Shown piece after piece: positions 19,687 through 22,363 of a stretch of DNA of 40,330 bases; position 1 is the first letter of the stretch; each line of letters opens with the position of its first letter. The stretch is taken from NCBI GenBank assembly GCA_947464595.1, contig CANHXO010000010.1:1-40330 (forward strand). The letters are read 5' to 3'. Under the pieces are notes generated by a model that made no database searches, was not told the DNA's origin, and saw nothing but the letters and a program-made list of their open reading frames with translations. Source of the DNA: Cytophagaceae bacterium (GTDB taxonomy: Bacteria; Bacteroidota; Bacteroidia; Cytophagales; Spirosomataceae). Position numbers and translations under genes: made by a program.

Positions 19687-19719
19687 ATAAGGCTTTTAGG
19701 GAATTCCTAAAAGCCTTAT
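19687..19719. terminator. Terminator between the DUF1080 gene and tyrA (convergent)
   Basis: Perfect 14-bp stem ATAAGGCTTTTAGG (19687-19700) with CCTAAAAGCCTTAT (19706-19719) and a 5-nt loop. T-rich sequence follows on the plus strand. The stem overlaps the tyrA stop codon, so it probably also ends the minus-strand transcript, though the T run there is poor. Confidence 0.85.
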
Positions 19720-20579
19720 TTGTTTTTAAGTATTCGACCGATATCGTTGGCTTTGCTTAACTCAACTTTAAGTTTGTCATAGCTTCCGGCAAGCATTAAG
19801 CCTTTGTATTTGAGCAGCGTGTTGATGTACTCATCTAACACATCTAATAGATTTTCCTGATTTTGGTGGAAAATCTGACTCCACGTTTCTGGAGAAGATT
19901 TGGCCAATCGAACGGTAGATTCAAAACCGGTGGAGGCTAGTTCAAAAATCCTTTTTTCGTCCTTTTCTTTTTCCAAAACAGTATTAGCTAACGCGAAAGA
20001 ACAGATATGGGAAATATGAGAAATATAAGCTGTATGTACATCGTGGCTAATTGAATCCATGTAAATCAATGCCATATGAAGCCCATTTTTATACAGATCT
20101 TCAATGATTTCCGACGCAGTAGGCGAACTTAACTCTTTATCACAAATCACGCAGGTTTTTCCTTTGAAAAGGCCGAGGACAGCCGCTTCTGGGCCCGAAA
20201 ATTCTGTTCCGGCCATGGGGTGCGTAGATACAAATTGAGCCCGTTTCGGATGATTTTTTAACGCTTCATAAACTGGAGTTTTGGTAGAACCTACCTCAAT
20301 GATCAATTGATTGGGTTTTAATTGATCTAAAATTTTGGGAATGATGCTAACTAACACATCTACAGGGGTAGACGTGATGAAAATATCGACCTCGTTTAAC
20401 GCATTTTCCCAAGTCATTATTTGGTCTACTAAGCGCAGCGATAATGCTTTTGATTGATGTTCAGGATTGGTATCGATCCCAATGATTTCAGAAGCCCAAC
20501 CGCTTTCGCGAAGTCCTAATGCGATGGAACCGCCAATTAACCCTATCCCGATGATGCCAACCTTTTTATTTGATTCCAT
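19716..20579 (-). CDS. tyrA: Prephenate dehydrogenase (TyrA, no ACT domain)
   Basis: A 287-residue NAD(P)-dependent prephenate dehydrogenase that makes 4-hydroxyphenylpyruvate for tyrosine. The Rossmann motif KVGIIGIGLIGGSIALGL is at residues 5-22. The substrate region includes STHPMAGTEFSGPEAA and the helical C-terminal domain contains SHDVHTAYISHISHICSFALA. The frame is open upstream to 20672, but ATG 20579 is the natural start, 4 residues before the Rossmann strand. It overlaps the aminotransferase 3' end by 14 nt, so the two are translationally coupled. Length and sequence show only the catalytic and dimerisation domains. The ACT domain that gives tyrosine feedback in many TyrA proteins is not visible, which fits control at the attenuator upstream of the pair. 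Confidence 0.92.
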   Translation of the reverse strand: MESNKKVGIIGIGLIGGSIALGLRESGWASEIIGIDTNPEHQSKALSLRLVDQIMTWENALNEVDIFITSTPVDVLVSIIPKILDQLKPNQLIIEVGSTKTPVYEALKNHPKRAQFVSTHPMAGTEFSGPEAAVLGLFKGKTCVICDKELSSPTASEIIEDLYKNGLHMALIYMDSISHDVHTAYISHISHICSFALANTVLEKEKDEKRIFELASTGFESTVRLAKSSPETWSQIFHQNQENLLDVLDEYINTLLKYKGLMLAGSYDKLKVELSKANDIGRILKNK

Positions 20580-21744
20580 TTGATTTTGATTTAATGCGCT
20601 GAATAACCTCTTTAAACACTTCTTCTTTTGCACATAATGAAATACGGATATACTCATTTCCTTGAGTTCCAAAGATCCCCCCTGGGGTTATAAAAACCGC
20701 ATGATTGATTAGTATATCATCCGATAATTCATAACCAGAGCTAAAATCACTAGGTGTTTTTGCCCATACAAACATACCTGATTGCGCTTTATCGTAGGTG
20801 CAGTTCAATAGATCTAGTAGTTCGAAAACGAGTTTTTGACGCGACTTATAGAGGGCATTTTGTTGTTTAAACCAGGTAAGATCTGCTGAAAGGGCCTCTA
20901 TAGCGGCTACCTGTAATGGAAGAAACATCCCCGAATCCATGTTCGATTTAAATTTTAACACAGGGTTTAAAAATGCTGATTTACCCATTAAAGCGCCGAC
21001 TCTCCAGCCCGCCATATTATGGGATTTGGACAAAGAATTTAATTCGATGCCCACCTCCATCATTCCAGGAATGGCTAGCATGGATAATGGTTCCTCATTT
21101 AAAATAAAACTATATGGATTATCGTTGACCAATAAAATGGAATGCTTTTGAGCAAAATCTTTTAATTGCTGAAAGAAAGATACATCCGCTTTCGCACCTG
21201 TAGGCATATGTGGATAATTGACCCACATGATTTTAACTTTTGATAAATCCCTCGATTCAAGTGCTTTTAAATCGGGAAGCCAACCCGTTTCTTCGGATAA
21301 TTCGTAGGTTAAAACCTTTGCCCCGGCTAATGAGCAAGCTGCTTGGTACGTAGGATATCCAGGATTTGGAATTAATGTTTCGTCTCCAGCTTCTAAATAA
21401 GCCATGGCAATGTGCATAATCCCTTCTTTAGATCCCATGAGAGGCAGGATTTCTGATTGGGGGTTTAATTCTACTGTATAATGAGCAGCATAAAAATCCG
21501 CAAAAGCTTTTCTTAGGGCAGGTATTCCTTGATAACCTTGGTAAGCATGGTTATCTGGATTTGCTGCAGCAGCCGTTAGGGCATCAATCGTTTTTTTCGA
21601 AGGTGCCAAATCTGGACTTCCTATGCCAATATTGATGACAGGAATTCCATCTGCTTTTAATTGGGCTATCTGTTTTAATTTGGTCGAAAAATAATATTCT
21701 TCAACGGTATTTAATCGAGATGCGGTGGATATATCTAAGCTCAT
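20566..21744 (-). CDS. Class I/II PLP aminotransferase, probable aromatic (tyrosine) aminotransferase
   Basis: A 392-residue fold-type I aminotransferase. PLP-site features are N177 (VNYPHMPTG), D208 and Y211 (DNPYSF), the Schiff-base lysine K240 in NSLSKSHNMAGWRVG with the phosphate-contacting Arg, and a late Arg in EYIRISLC. It belongs to the DapL/AspC-like group, which by sequence alone could act on aspartate, aromatic acids or diaminopimelate. Context points to aromatic work: it overlaps tyrA, and its mRNA begins with a tyrosine-rich leader and attenuator. It would then convert 4-hydroxyphenylpyruvate to tyrosine, and possibly phenylpyruvate to phenylalanine. The start codon lies 5 nt after the attenuator U run with no Shine-Dalgarno site. 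Confidence 0.88.
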   Translation of the reverse strand: MSLDISTASRLNTVEEYYFSTKLKQIAQLKADGIPVINIGIGSPDLAPSKKTIDALTAAAANPDNHAYQGYQGIPALRKAFADFYAAHYTVELNPQSEILPLMGSKEGIMHIAMAYLEAGDETLIPNPGYPTYQAACSLAGAKVLTYELSEETGWLPDLKALESRDLSKVKIMWVNYPHMPTGAKADVSFFQQLKDFAQKHSILLVNDNPYSFILNEEPLSMLAIPGMMEVGIELNSLSKSHNMAGWRVGALMGKSAFLNPVLKFKSNMDSGMFLPLQVAAIEALSADLTWFKQQNALYKSRQKLVFELLDLLNCTYDKAQSGMFVWAKTPSDFSSGYELSDDILINHAVFITPGGIFGTQGNEYIRISLCAKEEVFKEVIQRIKSKSNGIK

Positions 21745-21749
21745 AAAAC

Positions 21750-21773
21750 AAAAAAACCGACGATGGGCCGGTT
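21750..21773 (-). terminator. Attenuator terminator hairpin before the aminotransferase gene
   Basis: In the minus-strand RNA, AACCGGC (21773-21767) pairs with GUCGGUU (21761-21755) over 7 bp, with one G-U and a CCAUC loop. The U run spans 21756-21750, with its first two bases closing the stem. It lies inside the leader, 5 nt before the aminotransferase ATG, so a structure there must be conditional for the gene to be expressed. Its 5' arm is exactly the 3' arm of the competing antiterminator. Confidence 0.88.
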
Positions 21774-21808
21774 GTTAGTAAGTTATAGTTAAAACCTATG
21801 TAACCGGC
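21767..21808 (-). promoter_or_regulatory. Antiterminator of the tyrosine attenuator
   Basis: GCCGGUU (21808-21802) is a perfect 7-bp complement of AACCGGC (21773-21767), with a 28-nt A/U-rich loop. The 5' arm starts on the last base of the leader peptide's UAG stop codon. A ribosome stalled on the Tyr codons leaves this arm free, so the antiterminator forms. A ribosome that reaches the stop codon covers it, so the terminator forms instead. The two pairings are mutually exclusive because both need 21767-21773. Confidence 0.82.
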
Positions 21809-21873
21809 TATGCGCAATGGAAATACCCTGCGTAATAATATCCGATGTAATACGTTTTGTTTTCAAAATTCAT
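21808..21873 (-). CDS. Tyrosine-rich leader peptide (21 aa) of the aminotransferase-tyrA attenuator
   Basis: A 21-codon ORF from ATG 21873 to TAG 21810-21808. Codons 8, 9, 12, 13, 14 and 17 are Tyr, and codons 3 and 18 are Phe, so 8 of 21 residues are aromatic. The peptide reads YYIGYYYAGYF over residues 8-18. Such density is not expected by chance and is the hallmark of an attenuation leader that measures charged tRNA-Tyr. The promoter's -7 element ends only 4 nt before the ATG, so the mRNA would be leaderless or nearly so. The stop codon directly touches the antiterminator arm, giving the geometry needed for ribosome-controlled switching. Confidence 0.85.
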   Translation of the reverse strand: MNFENKTYYIGYYYAGYFHCA

Positions 21874-21877
21874 GCCT

Positions 21878-21908
21878 CAAAGGTATAAAAAAAATGTTTT
21901 TAAGCAAA
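21878..21908 (-). promoter_or_regulatory. Promoter of the tyrosine leader operon (TTTG-N19-TACCTTTG)
   Basis: On the minus strand TTTG (21908-21905) is followed after exactly 19 nt by TACCTTTG (21885-21878), a full match to the Bacteroidota housekeeping promoter. It lies just 6 nt after the recX stop codon. Transcription should begin 4-7 nt past the TTTG, at or next to the leader ATG (21873). Confidence 0.82.
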
Positions 21909-21913
21909 TTATA

Positions 21914-22363
21914 TCAAAAAAGGCCTTTTAATTGGGCCACAACAAGACTGGACTCATATCCTTTTGAAAGTGCAAAAGCGTAGCACTTTTGGTATTTTTG
22001 TTGTGTAGTCCCGGTCTTGATTTCAGCCTTTTTCTTATGAATTATTTTTTTTAATTTTTCGATGTATTCGGTTTCATCTAAGTCCTCCCATGCATGTACT
22101 AGCATTGACTCTGGAATTCCCCTTTTTTTTAATTCAAACATTATTTTGTTTCGACCCCAATTTTTTTGATTGAATTTGGAACGAACAAAAATTTCCACGA
22201 AGCGAGATTCATTTAAGTAGTTATTTTCAGCAAGCCAAGTAAGGTAATTCGGTTGGTCAGACTCGTCCACAAGCAAATCTTTCATTTTTTGTTTGATTTC
22301 AGAGATGCAACGTTCTTGATAGGCGCAATAACGGGCCAATTGATTTAAAACCTTGCTGTCCAT
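21914..22363 (-). CDS. recX: Regulatory protein RecX
   Basis: A 149-residue RecX family protein, a cytoplasmic modulator of RecA filaments. It is built of three-helix repeats: LNQLARYCAYQERCISEIKQKM, then YLTWLAENNYLNESRFVEIFVRSKFNQKNWGRNKIMFELKKRGIP, then a C-terminal repeat with YQKCYAFALSKGYESSLV. The RFVEIFVRSKF..WG..KI..ELK signature is typical. It follows hemA by 11 nt on the same strand, so it is probably co-transcribed with it. There is no clear terminator after its stop; a perfect 12-bp palindrome (21918-21929) inside the 3' end has no loop. hemA-recX transcripts may therefore continue into the tyrosine attenuator. Confidence 0.92.
   Translation of the reverse strand: MDSKVLNQLARYCAYQERCISEIKQKMKDLLVDESDQPNYLTWLAENNYLNESRFVEIFVRSKFNQKNWGRNKIMFELKKRGIPESMLVHAWEDLDETEYIEKLKKIIHKKKAEIKTGTTQQKYQKCYAFALSKGYESSLVVAQLKGLF

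Follow-up and report, generated by a model that had tools for sequence, protein, structure and literature searches.

A putative tyrosine-sensing leader-peptide attenuator ahead of an aminotransferase-tyrA operon in one branch of the Cytophagaceae/Spirosomaceae

Introduction

Why does a Bacteroidota operon made of an aminotransferase gene and tyrA begin with a short open reading frame (ORF) crowded with tyrosine codons, and could that ORF be the sensor of an attenuator? The attenuators of E. coli follow a four-segment layout in which antiterminator and terminator overlap and an intrinsic terminator lies ahead of the biosynthetic genes. To our knowledge, tyrosine seems to be absent from the amino acids known to be sensed by leader peptides. 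We studied the locus within a 40,330-nt stretch of Cytophagaceae DNA (hereafter, the window), which belongs to a draft genome of 2.2 Mb, 74% complete and divided into 140 contigs. A first-pass annotation of the window had proposed a trp/his/phe-type attenuation layout at this site and had considered that a tyrosine version could be undescribed in the phylum.

Results

On the minus strand of the window the genes follow the order recX (21914-22363), leader, aminotransferase and tyrA. The first structural gene encodes a class I/II aminotransferase of 392 aa whose scores against NCBIfam were all below the curated cut-off among the matches listed (25 of 63). Its nearest relatives among the matches listed (80 loci) come from Cytophagaceae MAGs with 88% identity, and the isolates with names that appear at 75-77% identity include Aquirufa antheringensis and Sandaracinomonas limnophila. 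The tyrA gene had been listed as a 318-aa ORF starting at a TTG (19716-20672), and its family match begins just after an internal ATG at 20579. We chose this ATG as the start, which produces a 14-nt overlap with the end of the aminotransferase gene and suggests translational coupling. Since the next long ORF beyond tyrA lies on the opposite strand, the operon consists of the aminotransferase gene and tyrA. The pheA gene of this genome, recognized by a PF00800 match, is located on a different contig.

Next, we reread the minus strand and found the promoter, the ORF, its Tyr codons and the three arms where the first-pass annotation had placed them (Table 1). The two promoter boxes are separated by a 19-nt spacer. 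Six codons of the leader ORF encode Tyr (8, 9, 12, 13, 14 and 17) and two encode Phe (3 and 18). The stop codon had been described as touching arm 1 and indeed overlaps it by one base, the first G of arm 1 being the final base of the stop codon. The arm 1:arm 2 and arm 2:arm 3 hairpins are mutually exclusive and lie upstream of aminotransferase-tyrA (minus strand, 21908-21744). A generic terminator scan independently recovered AACCGGC-CCATC-GTCGGTT with its T-tract; thus, in the window, as in its relatives, a predicted intrinsic terminator stands between the leader ORF and the first structural gene. The seven U residues that had been placed after arm 3 are present (21756-21750), but two of them belong to the arm and only five lie beyond the stem. 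Likewise, the order GUCGGUU, U residues, aminotransferase ATG was correct, but a GTTTT intervenes between the five-T tract and the ATG at 21744. Inside the ORF, a possible pause-like hairpin spans the last Tyr codon and ends 2 nt short of the stop codon.

Table 1. Positions in the window of the leader elements and of the genes of the operon.
Feature	Position	Strand	Basis
-33 promoter box TTTG	21905..21908	-	sequence; fits the TTTG / TAnnTTTG consensus (PMC7366714)
-7 promoter box TACCTTTG, 4 nt upstream of the leader ATG	21878..21885	-	sequence
Leader ORF MNFENKTYYIGYYYAGYFHCA, 21 codons + TAG	21808..21873	-	sequence, conservation
Possible pause-like hairpin inside the leader ORF	21813..21832	-	predicted fold
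Arm 1 GCCGGTT, antiterminator 5' strand	21802..21808	-	sequence, pairing comparison
Arm 2 AACCGGC, common strand pairing with arm 1 or arm 3	21767..21773	-	sequence, pairing comparison
Arm 3 GTCGGTT, terminator 3' strand	21755..21761	-	sequence, terminator scan
Terminator T-tract past the stem	21750..21754	-	sequence, terminator scan
Class I/II aminotransferase, first structural gene	20566..21744	-	PF00155, E 1.9e-59
tyrA, prephenate dehydrogenase	19716..20579	-	NF006307, 338 bits (cut-off 295); PF02153, PF20463

A search of 38 genomes of the same genus revealed a Tyr leader (at least five Tyr) in all 36 that have the aminotransferase; the remaining two, both drafts, gave no match to this enzyme. 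When the survey was extended to 130 loci, 65 of the 67 with an aminotransferase identity of at least 61.7% had a 12-30-codon ORF with four or more Tyr upstream of the gene, as did 1 of the 63 loci below that value. This cut was picked post hoc with the data already seen and divides loci rather than independent genomes, some records being apparently duplicated (e.g. L016 and L120). The named genera with a Tyr leader are Aquirufa, Sandaracinomonas, Flectobacillus, Arcicella, Pseudarcicella and Siphonobacter. The peptides diverge strongly, as exemplified by MNYTGNTYYGAYYYAGYYTCR, MATILYTASYYYYYANA and MSFFNNSYRYYYSIK, and their constant part is Tyr. Congruently with the first-pass annotation, both the Tyr-rich ORF upstream of the orthologs and the alternative pairing of the arms are kept in six or more named genera, whose peptides and arms differ in sequence.

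Three observations support a coding role for the leader ORF. Both Tyr codons are used (TAT 96 and TAC 80 in the 30 distinct regions without pheA), the stop codons vary among relatives (TAG 20, TAA 17 and TGA 2 in 39 distinct ORFs), and an alignment of 14 leader ORFs (A2) contains a single length change, an in-frame deletion of 3 nt. The differences at codon positions 1, 2 and 3 were 363, 660 and 922 for leader codons 8-18, a modest excess at the third position. These leaders can be described as short ORFs rich in codons for the product amino acid, whose conservation points to their translation. The 863,446 bp of fetched loci, which are neighborhoods of the aminotransferase and pheA genes rather than whole genomes and include some genomes twice, contain 5,333 ORFs of 12-30 codons, 58 of which are Tyr-rich (a minimum of five Tyr and of 24% Tyr). 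Every one of the 58 is the leader of this operon or of the form headed by pheA (57 Tyr and one Phe/Tyr, L076), and none of the non-leader sites in these loci yielded a Tyr-rich short ORF. Judged from these counts, the Tyr-rich leader ORF is not a product of chance.

The element is not universal even among near relatives. Thirteen other genera of the family have an aminotransferase of ~49% identity without such a leader, with tyrA adjoining in 11 of the 13; among them, L191 shows an ORF that looks like a chance occurrence, and the upstream sequence of L195 is limited to 534 nt. In this group (L184-L196), the sequence TAACTTGC, perhaps a promoter box, is located upstream of the aminotransferase start of L185, L190, L191, L193, L195 and L196. 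A separate case is L010, a record titled as a Spirosoma fluviale MAG, whose aminotransferase (76% identity) and leader fit the genus of the window and whose upstream stretch looks identical to that of L103, a locus of that genus; its title looks misassigned.

We also searched 121 genomes of the family with a covariance model built from the genus and Sandaracinomonas. It gave a single match apiece in 12 genomes, 10 of them adjoining aminotransferases already located and the other two likewise upstream of an aminotransferase. This model is narrow, as it failed to recover the Tyr leaders of G038, G042, G046, G047 and G056 (L122, L121, L123, L120 and L124, respectively); it found no leader copies elsewhere in these 121 genomes, a search that copies of another shape could escape. 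The window leader was also compared with Rfam, and the candidates of a known leader RNA, riboswitch or T-box were discarded: none matched at the gathering score, and the only hit, RNAI, had an E of 0.36, below the cut-off.

Then, we looked at the start of the leader. The ATG lies 4-5 nt past a TAnnTTTG box in 58 of the 65 Tyr-leader loci with an aminotransferase identity of at least 61.7%; the other seven have a gap of 18-24 nt or no box. The consensus of Bacteroidota promoters comprises TTTG at -33 and TAnnTTTG at -7 (PMC7366714), and if the box is centered near -7 the transcript would start within a few nucleotides of the leader ATG. The promoter box thus predicts a near-leaderless peptide. 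Leaderless starts are described as rare in both reported members of the phylum: 3.7% of the 5' UTRs of B. thetaiotaomicron are shorter than 10 nt (PMC7366714), and 5.5% of starts are leaderless in F. psychrophilum, whose report also describes Bacteroidota as lacking Shine-Dalgarno sequences (PMC9723704).

The arms do not align across genera, so we compared them with a script rather than with a covariation tool, in 67 distinct leader regions of which 30 lack pheA and 37 have it directly upstream. Identical regions were merged, and the set excludes regions with an aromatic score below 0.25 as well as the Phe/Tyr loci L073 and L076, in which the scanner found no terminator. The first paired base of arm 1 is located 1-5 nt past the first base of the stop codon in 30/30 regions without pheA and 34/37 with pheA. 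The arm 1:arm 2 pairing was equaled by no more than 15 of 300 shuffles in 29/30 and 28/37 regions, respectively, and by 2 of 300 in the window; it was weak (over -7 kcal/mol) in 8 of the 37 pheA regions, several of them with a longer ORF that runs past the aromatic codons. The two hairpins share 4 nt or more of arm 2 in 30/30 and 34/37 regions, consistent with an antiterminator and a terminator that have one strand in common. In Pseudarcicella (L024) the arms are GAGTAGG, CCTGCTC and GAGTAGG, so that the sequence has changed and the fit has been kept. An arm-swap control gave a modest signal, the own arms beating 95% of the foreign ones in 13/30 regions without pheA and 14/37 with pheA, with mean energies for own versus foreign arms of -12.9 vs. 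-8.5 and -14.7 vs. -8.4 kcal/mol, respectively. The parts, their geometry, their conservation and the common arm can all be read directly from the DNA.

The last Tyr codon precedes the stop codon by 9-15 nt in 27 of the 29 regions scored on Tyr alone and by 24 nt in the other two; the thirtieth region, L067 with its mixed Phe/Tyr leader, was scored on aromatic codons of any kind. With this placement, a ribosome stalled at the control codons would free arm 1, and one at the stop codon would cover it. A hairpin across the last control codons recurs in different leaders (e.g. L025, L016, L057 and the window), and in several genera the last UAC pairs with the UAG stop, as in the CUACGC-CAAC-GCGUAG of Siphonobacter. 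Compared with synonymous recodings, this hairpin ranked among the lowest 10% in 6/30 regions without pheA and 22/37 with pheA, many of these rows being close relatives, and in the window 88 of 500 recodings folded equally well. By these predictions it may act as a pause hairpin.

To estimate switching, we computed folds with a ribosome footprint of 12 nt. The alternative hairpins expected from the first-pass annotation are present, but the energy of the whole window leader is unremarkable (z -1.59) and the naked leader is predicted to form the antiterminator in its minimum-energy fold. The probability of the terminator in the window was 1.0 with the ribosome at the stop codon, 0.13 with the ribosome stalled at Tyr17 and 0.79 without a ribosome, so the naked leader is ambiguous, this last value standing against the antiterminator of its minimum-energy fold. 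Stalling lowered the equilibrium probability of the terminator by more than 0.5 in 12/30 regions without pheA and 1/37 with pheA; in the remaining regions the local terminator was favored at equilibrium or the drop was smaller. When arm 3 had not yet been made, arm 2 was paired upstream (probability above 0.5) with the ribosome stalled in 30/30 regions without pheA and 33/37 with pheA, and with the ribosome at the stop codon in 9/30 and 5/37. In this model calculation a stalled ribosome lets arm 2 pair upstream before arm 3 exists, so that switching would depend on the order in which the arms are made; in regions without an equilibrium switch the antiterminator would have to win kinetically.

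Finally, the gene content of the operon provided a natural experiment, with Phe/Tyr leaders where pheA heads the operon and Tyr-dominated leaders elsewhere. An aromatic leader was found in 44 of the 47 loci with pheA upstream of the aminotransferase and enough sequence, after setting aside nine pheA loci with less than 350 nt above pheA. The 36 distinct leaders of this type contain 130 Tyr, 172 Phe and 24 Trp, and Tyr exceeds Phe in 3 of them. When pheA is not upstream, a leader was present in 67 of 97 loci, and the 30 loci lacking it include three own-genome paralogs, Sphingobacterium loci and the 49%-identical family members; the 35 distinct leaders contain 205 Tyr, 30 Phe and 1 Trp, and Tyr exceeds Phe in 33. 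Such tracking of operon content by leader codons is what codon-sensing attenuation predicts. The exceptions to the rule are two Saprospiraceae loci, L067 and L069, with mixed Phe/Tyr leaders and no pheA upstream (the L069 leader has a GTG start and was read by eye); L191, also without pheA upstream, gave a chance-looking leader match, and no leader was found in L197-L199 (same order, pheA upstream).

Mixed Phe/Tyr(/Trp) leaders before pheA-aminotransferase-tyrA occur in several Bacteroidota orders, most of them with the same stop-adjacent arm. The loci with mixed Phe/Tyr leaders are L031-L066, which include Chitinophaga, and those of Hymenobacter (L043, L049, L057 and L075), Saprospiraceae (L027, L053, L065 and L084), Flavobacteriaceae (L080 and L083) and Bacteroidales (L082). 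Many Chitinophaga leaders finish in FFWYQK or similar, and these may also sense Trp. In Chitinophaga costaii (L036), pheA and the aminotransferase gene are separated by a long array of ATTCATAATTCATA-like repeats. The Tyr-only leader looks like a derived form of the mixed Phe/Tyr one, the direction of change being the one that the sequences suggest. We also searched for a TAnnTTTG box accompanied by a His-rich short ORF near hisG (10 loci, 8 of the genus), a Trp-rich one near trpE (10 loci, 9 of the genus) or a Phe/Tyr-rich one near a stand-alone pheA (30 loci, 21 of the genus), and found none in these loci, some of which have short upstream sequence.

Discussion

Our results make it likely, with a good deal of confidence, that the leader is a transcription attenuator in which the ribosome senses charged tRNA-Tyr. 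RNA polymerase would start nearly at the leader ATG, with a ribosome trailing it through the Tyr codons. When Tyr-tRNA is ample, the ribosome would reach the stop codon and cover arm 1, arm 2 would pair with arm 3 and transcription would terminate at the T-tract before the aminotransferase gene. When Tyr-tRNA is scarce, the ribosome would stall on a Tyr codon and leave arm 1 free to pair with arm 2 ahead of the synthesis of arm 3, allowing read-through into aminotransferase-tyrA. The leader would very probably switch the operon on when tyrosine runs short. In this scheme the transcription start, translation, stalling, termination and tyrosine response are predictions drawn from sequence. The ORF, the position of its stop codon and both alternative hairpins in the relatives support the trp/his/phe-type layout of the first-pass annotation, and the ORF, terminator, antiterminator and codon placement together would assign the element to the leader-peptide attenuators.

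Tyr-tRNA could also be sensed through a mainly translational control, in which the hairpin blocks the aminotransferase start site and stalling opens it. Only 10 nt separate arm 3 from the aminotransferase ATG in the window, and the gap between stem and ATG is 7-13 nt in the genus, Sandaracinomonas and L029 (stems as the scanner drew them), distances that would suit such a block. However, the gap extends to 22-99 nt in Siphonobacter, Pseudarcicella, Flectobacillus, Arcicella and related loci, the longer ones too far for simple occlusion, and we regard this reading as quite improbable; the T-tract after every stem counts little against it, since the scanner required one. The TnaC nascent peptide arrests the ribosome in response to tryptophan, and the leader peptide could similarly arrest it on free tyrosine or on a pathway intermediate. 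While the good conservation of YYYAGY within the genus would agree with such an arrest, outside the genus the peptides have little in common but Tyr runs (MATILYTASYYYYYANA, MKHLSNSYRPYYYYASRA) and the Phe/Tyr leaders differ again, so that sensing of codons fits better than a peptide receptor and we regard arrest as very improbable.

It is hardly credible that the hairpin is merely the terminator of the upstream recX, with an incidental ORF. The end of recX at 21914, ~140 nt upstream of the hairpin, would allow it, but a promoter-like sequence lies in between, and the ORF, the Tyr codons and the stop-adjacent arm are kept across genera with changed sequences; we discarded both a chance ORF and a recX terminator on the basis of this conservation. 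A further reading, that the leader responds to general translation speed or to Phe and Tyr together rather than to tyrosine specifically, seems unlikely. The two Phe of the window peptide (codons 3 and 18), the mixed leaders of the relatives and the C. glutamicum aroR leader (Phe-Tyr-Phe), which is reportedly affected by Phe limitation and not by Tyr (PMC11802643), favor it, but the ratio of 205 Tyr to 30 Phe over the 35 distinct leaders without pheA does not.

The tyrosine-only form, which the first-pass annotation had taken as possibly undescribed, seems new within the literature searched; leader-peptide attenuation itself is an established kind of regulation whose presence in the phylum had already been hinted at (PMC9723704). 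A search of the open-licence literature (titles and abstract openings) returned no report of a tyrosine-specific leader peptide. Three features appear to be new: the specificity for tyrosine, the near-leaderless start that relatives conserve, and the association of leader codons with operon content. We give even chances to a fuller account, in which this is the first tyrosine-specific ribosome-mediated attenuator, near-leaderless and belonging to one Cytophagaceae/Spirosomaceae branch. Its ancestor would be a Phe/Tyr leader of the sort found ahead of pheA-aminotransferase-tyrA in several Bacteroidota orders, with codons that changed to Tyr once pheA had left the operon. If this is true, the codons of the sensor mirror the genes that the operon contains. 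The tyrosine leader would also extend attenuation in a phylum without Shine-Dalgarno sequences and with rare leaderless starts.

Among the known systems, a survey of Actinobacteria places the tyrosine genes of other species under T-boxes (PMC1262725), and the main text of a survey of premature terminators contains neither "tyrosine" nor "bacteroid" (PMC2965389). The closest precedent in the phylum is the 2021 transcriptome of F. psychrophilum, which reported strong clues for leader-peptide attenuation upstream of amino-acid operons and conserved structured 5' elements, naming pheA and hisG (PMC9723704). Unlike the leader described here, those elements accompany another gene in another organism, and the section that presents them leaves tyrosine unmentioned; the pheA element probably corresponds to our mixed Phe/Tyr leaders. 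The uORFC-13-1 motif upstream of aroF in Acholeplasma is likewise a candidate uORF-type attenuator of the aromatic pathway, but it has Phe codons, precedes another gene and comes from Acholeplasma and environmental sequences (PMC8632094). The Cys-rich uORFs of mycobacteria, reported in a paper on leaderless transcripts, are similar in that an amino-acid-rich uORF was proposed to attenuate the linked operon; they differ in the amino acid, cysteine, and their authors allow for control of transcription or translation (PMC4633059). The aroR leader of aroF in C. glutamicum shares with ours an aromatic peptide with a Tyr codon before an operon of the aromatic pathway, but it belongs to another phylum and, with its Phe-Tyr-Phe, reportedly ignores tyrosine and responds to Phe (PMC11802643). 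Finally, the pheL-pheA and trpL-trp attenuators of E. coli resemble this leader in that their antiterminator overlaps the terminator, which is intrinsic and precedes the biosynthetic genes. Both also have a leader peptide encoded by a short ORF rich in codons for the end product (PMC11802643). In contrast to them, the leader described here, which has no Rfam match, uses Tyr codons and three arms, the first of which is at the stop codon, has only a putative 1:2 protector hairpin, and starts from a Bacteroidota-type promoter located 4 nt before its ATG.
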